DNA of 64,000 nt. Origin: Thauera sp. K11. Its GTDB lineage: Bacteria; Pseudomonadota; Gammaproteobacteria; Burkholderiales; Rhodocyclaceae. A model generated the notes under the pieces. It did no database searches. It saw nothing but the letters and a program-made list of their open reading frames with translations, and had not been told where the DNA came from. Where the stretch lies: NCBI RefSeq assembly GCF_002354895.1, contig NZ_CP023439.1, positions 3,596,001 through 3,660,000 of the forward strand, read 5' to 3'. Below are positions 25,930 to 44,457 of this stretch, piece after piece. The first letter of the stretch is position 1. Every line of letters starts with the position of its first letter. A program made the translations under genes and the position numbers.

Positions 25930-26379
25930 CTACGGCCGGCGCCGCACGACCAGGCTCGCGACGTAGATCTGCAGCGCCTCCCCGTCCTGGTTCAGCGTCG
26001 TGACCTTCACCCGGACGATGCCCTGTTCCGGCCGGGAGCGCGACGGCCGGACTTCGAGCACCTCGCTTTCGACGCGCAGCTCGTCCCCCGGGCGCACCGG
26101 GCGGGGCCAGCGCAGTTCTTCCAGTCCGGCGCCGACGATGCCGCCGGCCGGCCGGAACTCGCCGTCCACCAGCAGCCGCATGGTGAGCGCGGCCGTATGC
26201 CAGCCGCTGGCCGCCAGCCCGCCGAAGATCGTGTCCCGCGCCGCGCCGTCGTCGAGGTGGAAGGGCTGCGGGTCGAACTCGGCGGCGAAGCGCCAGATCG
26301 CCCCGGCATCGATCGCCAGACGGCCGGAGCCGAATTTCTGCCCGACCGCGAGGTCGTCGAGATAGTGCGGTTCTGTCAT
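25930..26379 (-). CDS. MaoC-like hotdog dehydratase
   Basis: A 149-residue MaoC domain protein. The hydratase motif around FAAEFDPQPFHLD (residues 31-43) provides the catalytic Asp and His of (R)-specific enoyl-CoA hydratases, and FGGLAASGWHTAALTMRL follows as usual. It probably hydrates an enoyl-CoA in fatty-acid or polyhydroxyalkanoate metabolism. GAGGGA lies before ATG 26379. It is divergent from a LysR gene that may control it. Confidence 0.9.
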   Translation of the reverse strand: MTEPHYLDDLAVGQKFGSGRLAIDAGAIWRFAAEFDPQPFHLDDGAARDTIFGGLAASGWHTAALTMRLLVDGEFRPAGGIVGAGLEELRWPRPVRPGDELRVESEVLEVRPSRSRPEQGIVRVKVTTLNQDGEALQIYVASLVVRRRP

Positions 26380-26538
26380 CGTTCAGACTCCCTCGTATGG
26401 AGCGACCGCCAGCACGCCCGGGCGGCGCAGGGTGTGGAACATGGCTCCACCCCGTGTGGAAGACGAGGCCGATTGTGCTGGCCCGGCACGCCGCCGACAA
26501 ACGATCTAATATGGGCCATGCCGTAGATTTTCTATTCC

Positions 26539-27471
26539 ATGAATCGCCATCCACCGATGAAAGCGCTCGTCGCGTTCGATGCCGCGATGCGGACGGGCAG
26601 TTTTTCTCTTGCCGCGGCAGCGCTTTTCGTCACCCCCGGCGCCGTCGGCCAGCAGATCCAGAAGCTGGAGGAATGGCTGGGCGTGGCGCTGTTCGTGCGC
26701 CGGACCCGCCAGGTGCAGCCGACCGAAGCGGCGCTGGCCTACTGGCAGCGCATCCAGCCGGCGCTGGCCCAGATCGTCGATGCCAGCGACAAGCTCAGGA
26801 ACAGCCGCAGCATGGCGGTGTCGCTGTCCATGCCCCCCGGCTTCGCGGCGCAATGGTTCACCCGCCGCATGGCCGGCCTGCTGCGGCGGCATCCGGCCAT
26901 CGAACTGCACCTCAACGCCACGCCGCAGGTGATCGACTTCGAACGCGAGCCGATCGACCTCGCCATCCGCTATTTCGACGGCCGGGCGCCCGACCTGGAC
27001 GCCACGCTGCTGCTGCAGGACGAAGGCCGCGCGTACGGCAATCCGCGCTACCTCGCGTCGCTGGACCTGCGCGTGCCGGACGACCTCACGCGCGCCACCC
27101 TGCTCGTGACCACGCTGCAGCCGCACTGGCCCGCCTGGCTGCGGGCCTGCAGCGGCCTTCCGGATGCCCGGATCGACGCCATCCCGCGCATCCACTTCGA
27201 CCAGAGCCTGACGGCCATCGAAGCCGCCCGGCAGGGACAGGGCGTGGTGATGACCAGCCCGCATCTGGTCGAAGCGGAAGTGGCCGCGGGTTCGCTGGTG
27301 GAACCCTTCGCGCACGCGCTGCCGCTCTCCCAGGGCTACTACGTGGTCCACCACCGCAGGCTGCCCCTGCGGCCGGCCGCCGCGGCGGTCAGGCAATGGC
27401 TGATCGACGAGGCGAACGGAGCGGGAAGGGAGCGCGACGATCTCCCACCCGAAGGCTCCCGCCACCGCTGA
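26539..27471 (+). CDS. LysR-family regulator (GcvA-like)
   Basis: A 310-residue LysR-type regulator. The N-terminal helix-turn-helix (MKALVAFDAAMRTGSFSLAA, then LFVTPGAVGQQIQKLEEWLG) and an effector domain with GcvA/AmpR-like features (VSLSMPPGFAAQWF; IDLAIRYFDG) are clear. It is divergent from the MaoC gene with 159 bp between starts, the normal arrangement for a LysR protein and its target, so it may regulate that hydratase. The inducer is unknown. Confidence 0.9.
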   Translation: MNRHPPMKALVAFDAAMRTGSFSLAAAALFVTPGAVGQQIQKLEEWLGVALFVRRTRQVQPTEAALAYWQRIQPALAQIVDASDKLRNSRSMAVSLSMPPGFAAQWFTRRMAGLLRRHPAIELHLNATPQVIDFEREPIDLAIRYFDGRAPDLDATLLLQDEGRAYGNPRYLASLDLRVPDDLTRATLLVTTLQPHWPAWLRACSGLPDARIDAIPRIHFDQSLTAIEAARQGQGVVMTSPHLVEAEVAAGSLVEPFAHALPLSQGYYVVHHRRLPLRPAAAAVRQWLIDEANGAGRERDDLPPEGSRHR

Positions 27472-27532: not shown

Positions 27533-28291
27533 ATGGCGCAAGGACTTCCGCGCACGCATTTCAACAGCGCCGGACTGGTTCGCCTCCTGTCCGGGCTCGC
27601 GGTCGCGGACGTCGCGGAGGCGCGGCAGTCGTTCGCCGAGCGGCTGGGCGACTGGCTGGACTTCACGCATGCGCTGTCGCTGTACTCCGCCCTCGATGCG
27701 GCGGCGGGGGAATCCGGTGCGCCGGCCGCCGCGCCCTCACCGGCGCGGCAGGCGTTCGCGCGCGTGCGCGGCACGCTGGCGGAATCGATCACCATCGACG
27801 GCGTGCAGAACCCGGGCAAGGCGCGCATCGCGCTGCCGGCCCCGCTGCCGCACGACACGGTGGAGAGCGCGTCCGACTTCGGCCCCTACCATCGCTACTA
27901 TCTCGCGCACCAGCGCGACATGAACGCGAACGTCGGCCCGCTGCGGGCCACGGTGCGGGCCGCGCTGTCCCGGCAGTCGCCCGTCCTCGCGCGGCTCGCC
28001 GCCCTGGATGCGGCGATGGACCAGGCCCTGGCCGACCGGGAGCGCACCCTGCTGGCGACAGTGCCGGCGCTGCTGGCCGGGCGCTTTGAGCGCCTGTTCC
28101 AGGCGCACCGGGCGGCACGGGCCGACGCGGAGACGGCGGACGATCCGGCCCGGTGGATGGAGCCGGGCGGCTGGCTGGCGCGGTTCTGCGGCGAGATGCG
28201 GGCGGTGCTGCTGGCCGAGCTGGAACTGCGCCTGCAGCCGGTCGCGGGGCTGATCGAGGCACTCGACAACGAGGTAGAAAAGCAGCAATGA
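27533..28291 (+). CDS. DUF3348 protein, first gene of a four-gene MotAB-like operon
   Basis: A 252-residue soluble, largely helical protein of family DUF3348. It has no signal peptide or membrane helix. The middle contains SASDFGPYHRYYLAHQRDM (residues about 112-130) and the rest is Ala/Arg/Leu-rich, suggesting coiled coils. It overlaps the next gene by the ATGA junction and always, as far as I know, occurs with DUF802, OmpA-like and DUF2894 genes. Function unknown; it may be a cytoplasmic partner of the channel-like DUF802 protein. Confidence 0.85.
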   Translation: MAQGLPRTHFNSAGLVRLLSGLAVADVAEARQSFAERLGDWLDFTHALSLYSALDAAAGESGAPAAAPSPARQAFARVRGTLAESITIDGVQNPGKARIALPAPLPHDTVESASDFGPYHRYYLAHQRDMNANVGPLRATVRAALSRQSPVLARLAALDAAMDQALADRERTLLATVPALLAGRFERLFQAHRAARADAETADDPARWMEPGGWLARFCGEMRAVLLAELELRLQPVAGLIEALDNEVEKQQ

Positions 28292-30498
28292 ACAAAAGCA
28301 TCTGCGTGGCCGCCTTCGTCGCCGGCCTGCTCGCCGTCGCCTGGGTGGGCGCCGGCTACATCGGCCACAGTGCGCTGGCCCTGGCGGTGACGGCCCTGAT
28401 CGGCGCCGTCCATGTCGCCGGTGCGGTGGAACTGCTGCGCTTCCACCGCGCCACGGCCGCGCTGGAACGCGCGCTGGCGAACATCCCCGACGGCCTGCCG
28501 GAACCGGGCGACTGGCTCGGCCGGTTGCCGCCATCGCTGCGCAACCCGGTGCGCCTGCGCCTCGAAGGCGAACGCGCCGCCCTGCCCGGACCGGCGGTCA
28601 CGCCCTACCTGGTGGGGCTGCTGGTGCTGCTGGGCATGCTCGGCACCTTCCTCGGCATGGTGGTGACGCTCAACGGCGCGGTGGTGGCGCTGGAAAGCAC
28701 CACCGACCTGCACGCCATCCGCTCCGCGCTCTCCGCCCCGGTGAAGGGGCTGGGCGTGGCCTTCGGCACCTCGGTGGCCGGCGTGGCCGCCTCCGCCATG
28801 CTGGGGCTGATGTCGGCCCTGTGCCGCCGCGCGCGGCTGCAGGCGTCGCAACTGCTGGACACGAAGATCGCCACCGATCTGCGCGGCTTCTCGCGCGCCC
28901 ATCAACGCCAGGAAACCTTCAGGGCGGTGCAGCAGCAGGCGCAGGCGCTGCCCGAGGTGGTGGGCACGCTGCAGGCGATGATGGCGCAGATGGAACGCCA
29001 GCAGCGCGAACTGAACGAGCGCCTGTTCACCGAGCAGCAGCGCTTCTACCAGGACGCGCGCGAGGCGTATTCCGGGCTGGCGGAATCCGTCGGCAAGTCG
29101 CTCGGGGACAGCCTGACGGAAAGCGCGCGCCTCGCCGGCGACGCGATCCGGCCGGCGGTGGAGGCCACCATGGCCGGCATCGCGCGGGAAACGGCCGATC
29201 TGCAGCAGCGCGTGGCCGACACCGTCACCGCCCAGCTCGACGGGCTCTCGACACGCTTCGACGGCGCCGTCGCCACCGTATCCGATACCTGGACCGCGGC
29301 GCTGGCCCGCCACGAACACAGCAGCGAATCCGTGGCCCGCAGCCTGCAGGACACGCTGACGGCCCATGCCGACACCGTCGCGCAGCGTTCGGCTGCGCTG
29401 CTCGCCTCGGTGGAAGGCGCCCATGCCGGCCTGCGGGCGGAACTGGCGGCCACGACGGCGGGCATGGCGCAGGAAACCCGCGCGCTGCACGCCGGCCTCA
29501 CGGAAGCCGTCGGGACGCAGCTCGACGGCATCGCCCGGCGCTTCGGCGCGGCGGTCGACACCGTGTCCGGCACGTGGACGGCGGCGCTGGCCCGCCACGA
29601 GCAGGCCGGCGACACGCTGAACGCCGAACTGCGCGCCGCCCTCGGCGCCTTCGCCGAGACCTTCGGCCAGCGTTCGGCCTCGCTGCTCGCCGGGGCGAGC
29701 GAAGCCGCCTCCGCCCTGCGCGCCGAACTGGCCGCCGCGGACCAGGCCCGGCTGGCGGCGCAGACCGAAGCCCTGGCGGCGATGACCGCGGCGCTGCGGC
29801 AGGAATGGCAGCAGGCCGGCGAACACGCCCGCGCCCAGCAGGAACGAATCTGCGAGGCGCTGGACGACACCGCCCGCGACATCGCCGCCGCCGCGCAGGC
29901 CCAGGCCGGCCGGACGATCGAGCAGATGGCCGGGCTCATGCAGACCGCCGCCGAGGCGCCGCGCGCCGCGGCCGAGGTCATCGGTGAACTGCGCCGGGAA
30001 CTGTCCGCCAGCATCGCGCGCGACAACGAGATGCTGGCCGAGCGCAACCGCATCATGGAAACCCTGGGCGCGCTGCTCGCCGCGATCAACCACGCATCGA
30101 CGGAACAGCGCGAGGCGATCGACGCCCTGGTGGCATCCTCCGCCGCGGCGCTCGAAACCGCCGGCAGCCGCTTCGCCGAACGCGTCGACGCGGAATCCGC
30201 GAAGATGGCCGACGCGGCCAGCCAGGTCGCCGGCGGCGCCGTCGAGGTGGCCAGCCTCACCGAGGCTTTCGGGCTCGCGGTGCAGCTCTTCGGCGACTCC
30301 AGCGCCAAGCTGATGGAAACGCTGCAGCGCGTCGAAGGCGCGCTCGACAAGTCCATGGCACGCAGCGACGAACAGCTCGCCTACTACGTGGCCCAGGCGC
30401 GCGAGATCATCGACCTGAGCCTGATGTCGCAGAAGCGGATCGTGGACGACCTGCAGCAGATCTCCGGCCGGCAGCCCTCGCTCGCCGGCGAGGTGTGA
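28288..30498 (+). CDS. DUF802 protein: MotA/ExbB-like membrane part with a long cytoplasmic coiled-coil tail
   Basis: A 736-residue protein. Two hydrophobic helices lie at residues 5-26 and 28-50. Two more helices, around 107-130 (LLVLLGMLGTFLGMVVTLNG) and 152-178 (KGLGVAFGTSVAGVAASAML), have the spacing and sequence style of the last two helices of MotA/TolQ/ExbB/ZorA channel proteins. Residues 180-736 are a long charged, Ala-rich helical tail with an internal DUF802 repeat. By analogy to ZorA, it would form a pentameric stator around the next gene's helix with a cytoplasmic tail. That structural reading is my inference; the family has no established function. Confidence 0.87.
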   Translation: MNKSICVAAFVAGLLAVAWVGAGYIGHSALALAVTALIGAVHVAGAVELLRFHRATAALERALANIPDGLPEPGDWLGRLPPSLRNPVRLRLEGERAALPGPAVTPYLVGLLVLLGMLGTFLGMVVTLNGAVVALESTTDLHAIRSALSAPVKGLGVAFGTSVAGVAASAMLGLMSALCRRARLQASQLLDTKIATDLRGFSRAHQRQETFRAVQQQAQALPEVVGTLQAMMAQMERQQRELNERLFTEQQRFYQDAREAYSGLAESVGKSLGDSLTESARLAGDAIRPAVEATMAGIARETADLQQRVADTVTAQLDGLSTRFDGAVATVSDTWTAALARHEHSSESVARSLQDTLTAHADTVAQRSAALLASVEGAHAGLRAELAATTAGMAQETRALHAGLTEAVGTQLDGIARRFGAAVDTVSGTWTAALARHEQAGDTLNAELRAALGAFAETFGQRSASLLAGASEAASALRAELAAADQARLAAQTEALAAMTAALRQEWQQAGEHARAQQERICEALDDTARDIAAAAQAQAGRTIEQMAGLMQTAAEAPRAAAEVIGELRRELSASIARDNEMLAERNRIMETLGALLAAINHASTEQREAIDALVASSAAALETAGSRFAERVDAESAKMADAASQVAGGAVEVASLTEAFGLAVQLFGDSSAKLMETLQRVEGALDKSMARSDEQLAYYVAQAREIIDLSLMSQKRIVDDLQQISGRQPSLAGEV
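29230..29607 (+). repeat. Internal DUF802 repeat, two copies 288 bp apart
   Basis: Two closely similar stretches of about 30 codons begin at 29230 and 29518, exactly 96 codons apart. Both encode QLDG-hydrophobic-x-x-RF followed by AVxTVSxTWTAALARHE. They lie in the coiled-coil tail of the DUF802 protein (residues about 315-345 and 411-441). They suggest growth of the tail by duplication of a 96-residue unit. Confidence 0.75.
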
Positions 30499-30500
30499 CG

Positions 30501-31142
30501 ATGGACGAGATCGACGCCGGCATCGAGCATTCCACGCCGGTCTGGGCCGTGTTCGGCGACCTGATGTCCGGCCTTCTGGGCGCCTTCGTGCTGATCCTGG
30601 TGGGCGTGCTCGGCGTCCAGTTGGAACTGGCGACCACGCTGGAGGCCGAGGTGCAGAAACGCCGCATCGAGGAACAGCGGCGCGAAGCGCTGGAGAAGGC
30701 CCTGGCCGTGCCGCTCGCCGCCGGCCGCGTGACGCTGGACGACGGCCGCATCGGCATCAGCGGCAGCGTGCTGTTCGCGCTGAACTCCGACGCGCTGCAG
30801 CCCGAGGGCCGGCAACTCCTGAAGAGCCTGGCGCCGCCGCTGGCCGCCTATCTCGGCAGCCGCGACGAGATGCTGATGGTGAGCGGCTTCACCGACGACC
30901 GGCCGGTGCACGACAGCAACCGGCAGTTCGCCGACAACTGGGAACTTTCCGCCCAGCGCGCCCTGACCGTGACCCGCGCCCTGATCGACGAAGGCATCCC
31001 GTCCTCGTCGATCTTCGCCGCGGCCTTCGGGCCGGAACAGCCGGTGGCCTCCAATGCCGACGCCGAAGGGCGCTCCCGCAACCGGCGCGTGGAGATGGCG
31101 CCGGTGCCGAAGTCGTCCAGGGCGGACGGAACGCCCCGATGA
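30501..31142 (+). CDS. MotB/OmpA-like protein of the DUF802 operon
   Basis: A 213-residue protein with a short cytoplasmic N-terminus and one membrane helix (residues about 14-38, PVWAVFGDLMSGLLGAFVLILVG). A linker and a C-terminal OmpA/MotB peptidoglycan-binding domain follow (GFTDDRPV, NWELSAQRA, GRSRNRRVEM). Asp20 at the start of the helix sits where MotB and ZorB carry their essential proton-binding Asp. It therefore probably forms an ion channel with the DUF802 protein and anchors it to the cell wall. ATG 30501 lies 3 bp past the DUF802 stop; a GTG at 30495 overlaps that stop. Confidence 0.87.
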   Translation: MDEIDAGIEHSTPVWAVFGDLMSGLLGAFVLILVGVLGVQLELATTLEAEVQKRRIEEQRREALEKALAVPLAAGRVTLDDGRIGISGSVLFALNSDALQPEGRQLLKSLAPPLAAYLGSRDEMLMVSGFTDDRPVHDSNRQFADNWELSAQRALTVTRALIDEGIPSSSIFAAAFGPEQPVASNADAEGRSRNRRVEMAPVPKSSRADGTPR

Positions 31143-31921
31143 ACGAAGCCGCCCGAGCCGGCGCCACGCCGGACGCCGCGCCGCAAGGCACGCCCGCCGC
31201 GCCGCCGCTCGAAGCCCTGCGGGCGCGGGGCGCGGAACGCTTCGATCCGGTCGGCCTGCGCTTCCTCGAAGCCCTGGCGCAGCGGGCCGCAGCCCGGCGG
31301 GACGACGTCCGGCGCCTGCTGGACCAAAGGCTGGAAGCGGCGATCGCCGGCTACGCCGAACGCTTCGACAGCGCCCGACGCGAGGCCGAAGATGCCGTCG
31401 CGCACGCGGCGGACCGCTTTCCGGAAGCCGTCGACGCGCTGCGGCAAGACTGCGAGGCGGGCGATTTCGGCGCCCTGCGTCGCCGGCTCACCGCGCTGGG
31501 AGCCCGGGCCCGCCGCAGCCCGCTGGCCGAACTGCTCGCCCATGCCGGGCGGCACGCGCCGGCCGGCGCACCCGCCCCGGCCGCCGACGGGCCGCGGGTC
31601 GAGCTGAAATCGCTGCAACATTTCCGCCGCACCTGGTCGAAGCTCGGCATCGACCGGCAGTTCTCCCACGCGCTGGCGCACGCGCCCGAAAACGCCGGCC
31701 CGCTCAACTCGCACCACCTCGTGCTGCGCTCGCTCACGCAGATGCGCAAGCTTTCGCCGGCCTACCTGGAGCAGTTCATGTCCTACGTCGACGCCCTGCT
31801 GTGGCTGGACCAGGCGGACGCCGGCCGCAGCAGCGCGGCGGCGAAGGGAACGGCAGTGAAGGGCACGACACGCGGGGAACGCGACAAGAAACGGAAGCCG
31901 GCCCGCGGCAAGGCCGGCTGA
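31139..31921 (+). CDS. DUF2894 protein, last gene of the four-gene operon
   Basis: A 260-residue soluble protein of family DUF2894. The N-terminal half is helical and charged (LDQRLEAAIAGYAERFDSAR). The conserved core is near residues 155-215 (LQHFRRTWSKLGIDRQFSHAL, and MRKLSPAYLEQFMSYVDALLWLDQA). A Lys/Arg-rich tail follows. No enzyme motif is visible. ATGA overlap with the preceding gene. With DUF3348 it is one of two cytoplasmic components of unknown role in this set. Confidence 0.85.
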   Translation: MNEAARAGATPDAAPQGTPAAPPLEALRARGAERFDPVGLRFLEALAQRAAARRDDVRRLLDQRLEAAIAGYAERFDSARREAEDAVAHAADRFPEAVDALRQDCEAGDFGALRRRLTALGARARRSPLAELLAHAGRHAPAGAPAPAADGPRVELKSLQHFRRTWSKLGIDRQFSHALAHAPENAGPLNSHHLVLRSLTQMRKLSPAYLEQFMSYVDALLWLDQADAGRSSAAAKGTAVKGTTRGERDKKRKPARGKAG

Positions 31922-32545: not shown

Positions 32546-32575
32546 TTGACGGCCCGGAGCCCGGGCCACTAGACT
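32546..32575 (+). promoter_or_regulatory. sigma70-type promoter of nrdAB
   Basis: TTGACG at 32546-32551 and TAGACT at 32570-32575 are separated by 18 bp. The predicted transcription start is near 32582, the first base of the cobalamin riboswitch P1 stem, which supports this choice. Confidence 0.6.
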
Positions 32576-32581
32576 TCCCGG

Positions 32582-32759
32582 CGTTGAACGGTTCCCCGTC
32601 CGGGGATTAAAAGGGAATCCGGTGCCAGGCCGCCAGCCTGAATTCCGGAGCTGCCCCCGCAACTGTCATCGGCGAGCGCTTCGCCATCGTCGCCACTGGT
32701 CGCGTACCGGGAAGGCGGCGGAGCGCGATGAACCGAGAGCCAGGAGACCTGCCGCAACG
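32582..32759 (+). promoter_or_regulatory. Cobalamin riboswitch in the nrdAB leader
   Basis: The B12 box AGCCAGGAGACCTGCC at 32738-32753 is a perfect match to the consensus. Other typical elements are GGGAATCCGGTG (32633-32644), GAGCTGCCCCCGCAACTGT (about 32648-32666), CCACTGGT and GGGAAGGCGG. The ends CGTTG (32582-32586) and CAACG (32755-32759) close the P1 stem. It would shut off the B12-independent ribonucleotide reductase when cobalamin is plentiful. The 168 bp between it and the GTG start holds the expression platform. Confidence 0.93.
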
Positions 32760-32927
32760 TCCTTCCAACCAATGACGGGGCGGGGTGTCCCTGGCGAAAG
32801 GTCCGTGCATGCCGCTGCTCGTTTCCGTTCGCAAGTCGTCTGCCGCCGCGGGTTCTGCCGCGGGCGCAAGCCGGCTTGCGTGCGGCATGCTCCGCCGGTT
32901 CCCCGCCCCCCGATCCGGAGAATCGCC

Positions 32928-35693
32928 GTGTCCTCGAACGTATCAGCACTGCCCGTCGGCAGCGAATCCGCGCTCGCCGCACTTCAGGTCATCCGCCGCA
33001 ACGGCGCCGTCGTCGCCTTCGATCCCGAAAAGATCGCGCTTGCGATGACCAAGGCTTTCCTCGCCGTCGAGGGCAGCCAGAGCGCGGTGTCGTCGCGCGT
33101 CCGCGAACTGGTGGCGCGCCTGACCGACATCGTCGTCCGCTCCCTGACCCGCCGGCTGCCGGACGGCGGCACGGTGCATATCGAGGACATCCAGGACCAG
33201 GTCGAACTGGCGCTGATGCGCTCCGGCGAGCACGACGTGGCGCGCGCCTACGTGCTGTACCGCGAGCGCCGGGCGGCGGAACGCGCGGCGCTGGCCGAGG
33301 CCCGGGGCGCGCCGGCGCTGCACGTCACGGTCGACGGCGAACGCCGCCCGCTCGACGTGGCCGCGCTGCTGGAGACCTGCGAGGCTGCCTGCGCCGGCCT
33401 GGACGAAGGCGTGTCGGCACGGCTGATCCTCGAGCAGGCGCTGAAGAACCTCTACGACGGCGTCGCCATGGCCGACGTGCAGCAGGCGCTCATCCTCGCC
33501 GCGCGCGCCCTCATCGAGCGCGAACCGGGCTACGACCAAGCGACCGCCCGCCTGCTGCTCGGCAGCCTGGTGCAGGAGGTCGCCGGCCGCGCGGTGGCGC
33601 CGCAGGACATGGCGCCGGCCTATGCCGAATACCTGCCGGAGTTCGTCGGGCGCGGCATCGCGGCCGGCCTGCTCGACCCCCGCCTGGCCGAATACGACCT
33701 CGTCCGGCTGGCGTCGGCGCTGAAGCCGGAACGCGACCTGCTGTTCGGCTACCTGGGCCTGCAGACGCTCTACGACCGCTATTTCCTGCACGTCGAAGGG
33801 CAGCGCATCGAGCTGCCGCAGATCTTCTTCATGCGCGTCGCGATGGGGCTGGCGCTGGGCGAGATCGACCGCGAGGCCCGCGCCATCGAGTTCTACGACC
33901 TCATCTCCAGCTTCGACTTCATGTGCTCGACGCCGACGCTGTTCAACAGCGGCACGATGCATCCGCAGTTGTCGTCGTGCTACCTCACCACCGTCGACGA
34001 CGACCTCGACGGCATCTACCAGGCCATCAAGGAGAACGCGCTGCTGCAGAAGTACGCCGGCGGCCTGGGCAACGACTGGACGCCGGTGCGCGCCCTGGGC
34101 AGCCGCATCAGGGGGACGAACGGCCAGAGCCAGGGGGTGATCCCCTTCCTCAAGGTGGTGAACGACACCGCGGTGGCCGTCAATCAGGGCGGCAAGCGCA
34201 AGGGCGCGGTCTGCGCCTACCTGGAAACCTGGCACCTCGACATCGAGGAATTCCTGGAGCTGCGCAAGAACACCGGCGACGAGCGCCGCCGCACCCACGA
34301 CATGAACACCGCCAACTGGATTCCGGACCTGTTCATGAAGCGCGTGCACGAAAACGGCGAGTGGACGCTGTTCTCGCCGGTGGACGTGCCCGACCTGCAC
34401 GAGAAGTTCGGCGCGGCGTTCGAGGCAGCCTACCTGGCCTGCGAGGCCAGGGCCGCGGCGGGGGAGATCCGCCTGCACAAGAAGATTCCGGCGGTGCAGT
34501 TGTGGCGCAAGATGCTCACCATGCTGTTCGAGACCGGGCATCCGTGGATCACCTTCAAGGACGCCTGCAACCTGCGCTCTCCGCAGCAGCATGCGGGCGT
34601 GGTCCACGGCTCCAACCTGTGCACGGAAATCACGCTCAACACCTCGGCTTCGGAAACCGCGGTGTGCAACCTGGGCTCGGTCAATCTGCCGGCGCACCTG
34701 AAGGACGGCGAGCTGGACCTGCAGAAGTTGTCGCGCACGATACAGACGGCCATGCGCATGCTGGACAACGTGATCGACATCAACTTCTACGCCACGCCCA
34801 AGGCGCGCAACGCCAACCTGCGGCATCGCCCGGTGGGGCTGGGCATCATGGGCTTTGCCGATTGCCTGTACCGGCTGGGCCTGCCCTACGCCTCGCCGGC
34901 AGCCGTCGAGTTCGCCGACCGCAGCATGGAGGCGGTGTGCTTCCACGCCTACCGGGCATCGACCGAACTGGCGCGGGAACGCGGCCGCTATTCGAGCTTC
35001 GCCGGCAGCCTGTGGGACAGGGGCATCCTGCCGCACGAATCCCTCGACCTGCTCGCGGCCGACCGCGGCGGCTACCTCGACACCGACCGCAGCGCGAGCC
35101 TGGACTGGGCGAGCCTGAAGGAGCGCATCGCCCGCTACGGCATGCGCAACTCCAACTGCGTCGCCATCGCGCCGACGGCGACCATCTCCAACATCGTCGG
35201 CGTGTCGGCCAGCATCGAGCCGGCCTACCAGAACCTCTACGTCAAGTCGAACCTGTCCGGCGAATTCACCGTCATCAACGAAGCGCTGGTGCGCGACCTG
35301 AAGGCGCTGGGGCTGTGGGACGAAGTCATGGCTGCCGACCTCAAGTATTTCGACGGCTCGCTCGCCCGCATCGACCGCGTTCCGGACGAACTCAAGGCAC
35401 GCTACGCCACCGCCTTCGAGATCGACCCGCGGTGGCTCATCGAAGCCGCCGCCCGCCGCCAGAAGTGGATCGACCAGGCGCAGTCCCTCAACCTCTACCT
35501 CGCCCTGCCCTCGGGCAAGAAGCTGGACGAACTCTACAAGCTCGCCTGGGTGCGGGGCCTCAAGACCACCTACTACCTGCGCACCCTGGGCGCCAGCCAG
35601 ACCGAGAAGGCGGGCGCGCGCGACGACGCCCCGGCGCAGGAGGCGCCCCGCTTCTGCAGCATCGACAACCCGGAATGCGAGGCTTGCCAATGA
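32928..35693 (+). CDS. nrdA: Ribonucleoside-diphosphate reductase alpha subunit, class I
   Basis: A 921-residue catalytic subunit. An ATP-cone starts near residue 20 (VIRRNGAVVAFDPEKI), with a second cone-like stretch around 120-215. The catalytic barrel follows, with radical Cys565 in NLCTEI and redox cysteines in SGTMHPQLSSC and AVCNLGSVNL. The C-terminal CSIDNPECEACQ tail carries the thioredoxin-reducible pair. It reduces ribonucleotides to deoxyribonucleotides using the radical from NrdB. The GTG start at 32928 has a CGGAG site 7 bases upstream and begins the sequence upstream of the cone; no suitable ATG lies nearby. It overlaps nrdB by 4 bases. Confidence 0.95.
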   Translation: MSSNVSALPVGSESALAALQVIRRNGAVVAFDPEKIALAMTKAFLAVEGSQSAVSSRVRELVARLTDIVVRSLTRRLPDGGTVHIEDIQDQVELALMRSGEHDVARAYVLYRERRAAERAALAEARGAPALHVTVDGERRPLDVAALLETCEAACAGLDEGVSARLILEQALKNLYDGVAMADVQQALILAARALIEREPGYDQATARLLLGSLVQEVAGRAVAPQDMAPAYAEYLPEFVGRGIAAGLLDPRLAEYDLVRLASALKPERDLLFGYLGLQTLYDRYFLHVEGQRIELPQIFFMRVAMGLALGEIDREARAIEFYDLISSFDFMCSTPTLFNSGTMHPQLSSCYLTTVDDDLDGIYQAIKENALLQKYAGGLGNDWTPVRALGSRIRGTNGQSQGVIPFLKVVNDTAVAVNQGGKRKGAVCAYLETWHLDIEEFLELRKNTGDERRRTHDMNTANWIPDLFMKRVHENGEWTLFSPVDVPDLHEKFGAAFEAAYLACEARAAAGEIRLHKKIPAVQLWRKMLTMLFETGHPWITFKDACNLRSPQQHAGVVHGSNLCTEITLNTSASETAVCNLGSVNLPAHLKDGELDLQKLSRTIQTAMRMLDNVIDINFYATPKARNANLRHRPVGLGIMGFADCLYRLGLPYASPAAVEFADRSMEAVCFHAYRASTELARERGRYSSFAGSLWDRGILPHESLDLLAADRGGYLDTDRSASLDWASLKERIARYGMRNSNCVAIAPTATISNIVGVSASIEPAYQNLYVKSNLSGEFTVINEALVRDLKALGLWDEVMAADLKYFDGSLARIDRVPDELKARYATAFEIDPRWLIEAAARRQKWIDQAQSLNLYLALPSGKKLDELYKLAWVRGLKTTYYLRTLGASQTEKAGARDDAPAQEAPRFCSIDNPECEACQ

Positions 35694-42960: not shown

Positions 42961-44310
<1,350 letters not shown>

Positions 44311-44352
44311 CGGATGCCACATTGGCTTTGTCACTGCCAACAATCTGCCGCG

Positions 44353-44369
44353 TCGGCACGATCCGCGCA
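44353..44369 (+). promoter_or_regulatory. Candidate sigma-54 (-24/-12) promoter before the SMR gene
   Basis: TCGGCACGATCCGCGCA keeps the GG and GC doublets 10 bases apart and the GGCACG block of the -24 element, but the -12 element is weak (GCGC for TTGC). It points toward the SMR gene, whose ATG is 88 bases downstream. The divergent sigma-54 activator makes it plausible. An inverted repeat TTGGC-N9-GCCAA lies just upstream at 44322-44340. Confidence 0.35.
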
Positions 44370-44457
44370 ACGGACTTTGATGGCAGGATTGCGCCGGACA
44401 ACGATGGGCGGCGTGCGGTCGAATGCACCGCACCGGCCCGAACAGAGGATTTCATCC

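Follow-up and report, generated by a model that had tools for sequence, protein, structure and literature searches.

The question raised by this locus is what kind of machine is encoded by four tightly packed genes on the same (plus) strand, spanning positions 27533-31921 of a 64,000-nt stretch of DNA from Thauera sp. K11 that was analysed as a whole and is referred to below as the window. A preliminary description had read them as a membrane machine of the MotAB/ZorAB type, probably driven by ions, with two cytoplasmic proteins as partners; it had also named defence among the candidate roles, and on both counts it was right. The operon very probably encodes a Zorya type III anti-phage defence system, acting by the mechanism proposed below with its motor, its tail and its two helical partners. 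The four open reading frames (ORFs), and the parts of them that are discussed, are as follows (aa, amino acids; TM, transmembrane; AF2, AlphaFold2; values for Pfam and PADLOC are E values).

27533-28291, plus strand: DUF3348 protein, 252 aa; Pfam PF11828, 1.5e-84; PADLOC PDLC00658, 3e-82; AF2 model all-helical
28288-30498, plus strand: ZorA3 (DUF802 protein), 736 aa; Pfam DUF802, 6.6e-28, in three stretches; PADLOC PDLC00650, 1.1e-290
28609-28812, plus strand: TM3-TM4 region of ZorA, residues 108-175, with Thr120, Thr161 and Ser162 as candidate polar ring
29173-29688, plus strand: ZorA tail repeat, two full copies, residues 296-372 and 391-467, 95 residues apart
30495-31142, plus strand: ZorB3 (MotB/OmpA-like), 215 aa, with one TM helix carrying Asp22; Pfam OmpA, 7.6e-18; PADLOC PDLC00651, 3.4e-115
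31139-31921, plus strand: DUF2894 protein, 260 aa, with a basic C-terminal tail; Pfam PF11445, 3.9e-62; PADLOC PDLC00652, 1.2e-69

Identification as Zorya type III

For each of the four proteins the best PADLOC match is a Zorya III profile, with the E values listed above. Zorya type III was named and defined in 2021 by Payne et al. (PMC8565338), whose accessible text describes 6,401 zor gene pairs that have genes for DUF3348 and DUF2894 on their flanks, and the same flanking of zorAB is found here by Pfam, by PADLOC and in the kept gene order. The ZorA protein joins a MotA-like membrane part with four TM-like stretches to a cytoplasmic tail of about 550 aa, the build that characterizes ZorA of Zorya systems, and it matches the PADLOC ZorA3 profile. 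The ZorB protein has the TM aspartate and the OmpA-type peptidoglycan-binding domain characteristic of its Zorya counterparts, the domain being recognised by Pfam and the residues concerned being invariant in all sequences compared below. According to the accessible part of the same publication, a type III copy from Stenotrophomonas nitritireducens, when placed in E. coli, reduced plaque formation by at least one phage, and cultures were protected when the multiplicity of infection was below 0.1 (PMC8565338). On sequence grounds, the Thauera copy is a further example of this already published system, to which anti-phage activity may be assigned by relationship; nothing was found to set it apart from published type III.

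For types I and II, structures and mutants have been reported, and the ion-carrier aspartate (D24/D21) as well as the peptidoglycan-binding residues are required for defence; in the accessible text of that study, type III is treated by domain content and distribution only (PMC11890865). The ZorA5B2 complex of types I and II is, in the accessible reports, built like an ion-driven rotary motor, with peptidoglycan binding, ion flow and the ZorA tail all being important for defence. Among the matches listed in a search of the open literature, no mechanism for type III was seen. The naming of the two partner proteins conflicts between sources, as DUF3348 is ZorF and DUF2894 is ZorG in the accessible text of PMC8565338 and PMC11890865, whereas DUF3348 is ZorG3 and DUF2894 is ZorF3 in PADLOC-DB 2.0.0.

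In the ORF list the ZorA3 frame begins further upstream, with GTG 28153; we chose ATG 28288. With a GTG start at 30495 for ZorB3, all three junctions of the operon are 4-base overlaps. From the ATG at 30501, in frame with that GTG, ZorB3 would have 213 aa with the key aspartate as residue 20, and a 2-bp gap would result, so that the overlaps and the 2-bp gap of the preliminary description are both accounted for. Either start is possible, and Asp22 (from GTG 30495) and Asp20 (from ATG 30501) are one residue.

The motor core

Hydropathy analysis places the TM-like stretches of ZorA at residues 5-23, 29-47, 108-126 and 157-175, with the tail of about 550 residues following. The motifs styled like MotA/ExbB/ZorA that had been pointed out earlier were located in the third and fourth of these hydrophobic stretches, and the length then given for the tail agrees with ours. 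The best PDB sequence match of ZorA is the type I ZorA 8vvn_C, a weak one (E 0.0011) that runs over TM3-TM4. For ZorB, residues 10-104 match 8vvn_B at 1e-4; MotB and other proteins with an OmpA domain give stronger PDB matches.

Conservation was followed in 117 distinct sequences from 128 loci and the window, where some genomes were represented by two routes and identical proteins were counted once. Asp22 of ZorB, on whose conservation (as Asp20) the preliminary description had staked its reading, is an aspartate in 117/117 of them. The same invariance (117/117) is seen for Asp134, Leu151, Arg155, Arg193 and Arg198, which represent most of the peptidoglycan-binding positions. In ZorA, position 120 is threonine in 111 of the 112 ungapped rows and serine in the remaining one (5 gapped rows set aside), while Thr161 is kept in 114/115 and Ser162 in 113/115 ungapped rows (2 gapped rows set aside for each). 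Judged by motif position, Thr120, Thr161 and Ser162 are candidates for the Ser/Thr ring of ZorA described in PMC11890865. The F-x-D-L-M motif is present in 20/20 ZorB proteins of a second set, drawn from one related genus and having one locus in common with the first set.

A modular ZorA tail

The two copies in the window ZorA served to grow a repeat profile, with which 112 distinct complete ZorA proteins (from 124) were searched. No copy was found in 2 of them, one in 39, two in 52, three in 18 and four in 1, and the length of ZorA increases with the number of copies (r 0.69). Successive repeats (n=91) are spaced by 95 residues in 40 cases, by 55 in 35 and by scattered distances in 16, the 55-residue spacing relying largely on partial profile matches; in the Thauera sp. 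K11 genome, two DUF802 matches lie 285 bp apart. The hydrophobic periodicity of the window tail is 3.66 residues, with a power of 4.5 as compared with 1.6 for the 99th percentile of shuffled sequences and 0.01 at 3.5 residues, and this tail is therefore a hendecad coiled coil. Across the 112 ZorA proteins the peak falls at 3.62-3.71 in 82, at 3.45-3.55 in none and elsewhere in 30, the periodicity lying above each protein's own 40 shuffles in 112/112. At 3.66 residues per turn, 95 residues correspond to 25.96 turns and 55 residues to 15.03, both near whole numbers, and the repeat units may thus keep the tail helix in phase. Such modular tail lengths provide natural variants for asking whether tail length matters.

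Conservation and distribution of the operon

The four genes stand in identical order in 48/48 loci from the genus, the family and the class; the association is therefore not due to chance. These loci include one (L097) whose DUF3348 gene was missed by tblastn and found by the Pfam profile just upstream of ZorA, and another (L088) in which the N-terminal part of ZorA was unmatched. Of 80 named loci, 76 show DUF3348 and 79 show DUF2894; where a gene is missing, its place falls at a contig end, as does the 26-residue DUF3348 remnant of L189. One related genus has all four genes in 20/21 loci, the exception being L250 with DUF3348 and ZorA only.

The distribution, counted as DUF3348 above cut-off with the own genome included, is patchy. 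DUF3348 was found in 17/29 genomes of the genus (12/21 good ones), in 35/199 genomes of the family (37 at E 0.001), in 8/369 genomes of the class and in 86/299 genomes of a second family of the order. Two genera of that second family, a non-random pick because all four sampled members of each carried DUF3348, showed it in 50/67 genomes (39/44 good ones) and in 13/21 genomes (9/12 good ones), respectively.

Defence versus a housekeeping role in the envelope

The rival explanation that survives best, unlikely as it is, holds that the native role is that of a housekeeping envelope machine for tension sensing or force transmission, and that the phage defence seen with over-expressed copies is a side effect. 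The near-universal presence in the first of the two picked genera (39/44) speaks for it. So do the correlation of operon and rpoB distances, the rarity on plasmids, the lack of phage matches, the flanking genes and the knock-down result described next; these, together with two details of the proteins themselves, also count against a defence system.

The operon tree largely follows that of rpoB. Over 42 genomes the distances of operon and rpoB correlate with a Mantel r of 0.854, and the correlation persists within the family (r 0.691, n=35) and within Thauera (r 0.68, n=12), with 0/2000 permutations reaching the observed value in each case. For this comparison, 7/49 operon genomes were dropped as they had no usable rpoB match, two of the rpoB sequences were partial, and the frame was chosen by motif. 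Out of 27 operon splits with support of at least 0.9, 15 recur identically among the supported rpoB splits, with which 7 others conflict. Such inheritance looks more vertical than would be expected of a mobile defence gene. It is also rare on plasmids, where ZorA occurs in 27/72,556 records (20 non-mobilizable, 7 mobilizable, none conjugative), the 25 plasmids listed being 0.37 to 3.5 Mb in size; the corresponding ZorB search gave 302 records, 27 of them covering at least 80% of the query, and the listed rows below those matched mainly in the OmpA part. No match to DUF3348 was found in 50,697 phage records.

The surroundings point in the same direction. A defence-island context is usual for defence systems without being defining, and the operon site is no defence island as judged from the 18 flanking ORFs scanned with PADLOC in 15351-48825, chosen by a rule on GC content at third codon positions (GC3) that missed nrdB; 17 of them had no match at 1e-5. 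The remaining one, at 42964-44433, is a PAS/sigma-54 activator by Pfam that scores 1.2e-103 on the PADLOC profile RtcR_PspF2 over the sigma-54 AAA domain alone, with no CARF domain reported, and is likely a false lead of that profile. In the native host B. cenocepacia K56-2, for which Zorya III is one of the systems predicted, knocking down predicted defence genes by CRISPR interference left fitness unchanged under one phage (PMC12584637). According to the same text, one or two leading genes of Zorya I and of Zorya III showed altered transcription when B. cenocepacia was infected (PMC12584637).

The two details of the proteins concern family models and a single residue. No NCBIfam ZorA model is reached above its cut-off, the scores being 33 bits versus 100, 16.3 versus 190 and 13.7 versus 500. 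In ZorB, mapping by motif puts Phe132 (Phe in 116/117 sequences, Tyr in 1) at the apparent position of His186, the peptidoglycan-binding histidine given for type I ZorB in the accessible text of PMC11890865; a solved MotB (3khn) likewise carries Phe in this motif.

Against a housekeeping role stands the fact that the operon is absent, by the cut-off used, from 12/29 genomes of its own genus (9/21 good ones) and from 164/199 genomes of the family. It occupies more than one chromosomal site, and in the near-universal genus, where 18/21 genomes were usable and r was 0.49, 6 of the 10 supported operon splits conflict with rpoB and 3 are identical. Moreover, direct anti-phage activity is reported for the Stenotrophomonas relative (PMC8565338). 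Judged with rpoB as a single marker, the operon seems to have been inherited for the most part vertically, to have been lost between genera and to have been exchanged inside at least one genus. In the operon tree of 42 genomes, two lineages each mix Thauera with members of two other genera (g27 and g67), which suggests an ancient transfer or, alternatively, an ancient duplication followed by loss. A Zorya type III defence system is preferred as the native role, and the genus with DUF3348 in 39/44 good genomes offers a host set for probing a role outside defence.

Neighbouring genes

According to Pfam, the operon has on one flank genes for a lysylphosphatidylglycerol synthase (MprF-like), VirJ, MaoC and LysR, and on the other genes for a YnfA-type protein, ribonucleotide reductase and a MacB-like permease. 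Seven further Thauera genomes have a counterpart of the adjoining LysR gene (25930-27471) at 79-83% identity, and in six MaoC is alongside. The operon lies on the contig of this LysR gene in G576, G577, G581 and G582, at a distance of 6-10 kb, and about 580 kb away in G588. Partial second LysR copies, each with an in-frame TGA, were seen near the intact one in two of these genomes (G577:C55:21150-21434 and G582:C54:19180-19356) and are perhaps a decayed duplicate. Among the 21 loci of the related genus, the upstream family that is shared most often is found in 11. The large subunit of ribonucleotide reductase, with an ATP cone, is encoded at 32622-35693, about 0.7 kb downstream of the operon, and is preceded by a lone sigma-70-like site at 32546-32575.

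Stators, secretion systems and the partner proteins

A flagellar stator variant, or a system of the ExbBD, TolQR or type VI secretion (T6SS) kind, is highly improbable. The OmpA-like protein does score on MotB, MotD and TssL models, and the MotB and OmpA-domain proteins among its strongest PDB matches would fit such an origin. Among the best 25 of 41 model rows, however, the MotB, MotD and TssL scores are below the cut-offs and mostly concern the OmpA domain only, the best MotD score being 94.3 bits versus 283. Far higher scores are obtained with the ZorB3 and ZorA3 profiles and with PRK09040, the NCBIfam equivalog for the ZorB family, which is named 'hypothetical protein' (382 bits versus a cut-off of 194), and no flagellar or secretion gene is present among the Pfam-annotated flanking genes.

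The partners of zorAB in the operon are DUF3348 and DUF2894, in agreement with the earlier view of two cytoplasmic proteins in place of ZorC/D/E. The AF2 model of DUF3348 is all-helical, with a mean predicted local distance difference test score (pLDDT) of 85.8 and a predicted TM-score (pTM) of 0.82. That of DUF2894 is also all-helical (pLDDT 80.8, pTM 0.51), its N-terminal part being modelled with confidence and its tail, from about residue 237 onwards, with low confidence. Where the motif located this tail (67 of 88 sequences), its net charge is at least +3 in 66/67 and at least +5 in 54/67. Database relatives at E 0.001 number at least 945 for DUF3348 and at least 626 for DUF2894. Neither protein gave a PDB match worth naming or a credible known fold, and Pfam recognised neither a nuclease nor a helicase nor any other enzyme domain in them, which would still be compatible with an activity. 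Two predicted helical proteins without a recognised enzyme domain raise the question of how Zorya halts phage in a system without ZorC/D/E. The lack of a recognised fold or domain function in both could be taken to favour the separate, undescribed kind of ion-driven machine that the preliminary description had proposed as new. All four genes, however, score on the curated profiles for Zorya III, and the type was published and tested against phage in 2021, so that this proposal is ruled out with next to no doubt.

Proposed mechanism

By analogy with types I and II, phage infection would disturb the envelope of the cell, upon which ZorB would grip the peptidoglycan. Ion flow would then set the pentamer of ZorA rotating, a motion that its long hendecad tail would pass into the cytoplasm. 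DUF3348 and DUF2894, both helical and with no recognisable nuclease, may serve there as adaptor and effector, the effector step being a guess; DUF2894 with its basic tail would be the likelier of the two to touch nucleic acid or membrane.

A bolder version of this scheme is conceivable, if rather doubtful. In it, type III would be a nuclease-free Zorya whose rotor drives a hendecad rod, with a length evolving ruler-like by whole-turn modules of 95 or 55 residues. The rod would turn a helical two-protein head, and the basic tail of DUF2894 would engage phage DNA or membrane directly. In some genera such a machine would be so widespread that it might serve the host outside infection as well.

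Comparison with known systems

With the flagellar MotAB and MotCD stators, the Thauera system shares a likely ion-driven layout with a peptidoglycan anchor; it differs from them in its long hendecad tail, in having no flagellar gene among the annotated neighbours and in its MotB and MotD scores below cut-off. The resemblance to Zorya types I and II is closer, comprising the MotA/MotB-like core, the ion-carrier aspartate, the OmpA peptidoglycan domain and the long ZorA tail. The partners in those types are ZorC/D or ZorE, whereas here they are DUF3348 and DUF2894, in which no helicase or nuclease domain is recognised, and the Thauera ZorA scores below the NCBIfam ZorA cut-offs. The Thauera copy sits among ordinary genes; it has the same four genes as Zorya type III (ZorA3, ZorB3, ZorF3 and ZorG3 of PADLOC), with strong profile matches to all of them.

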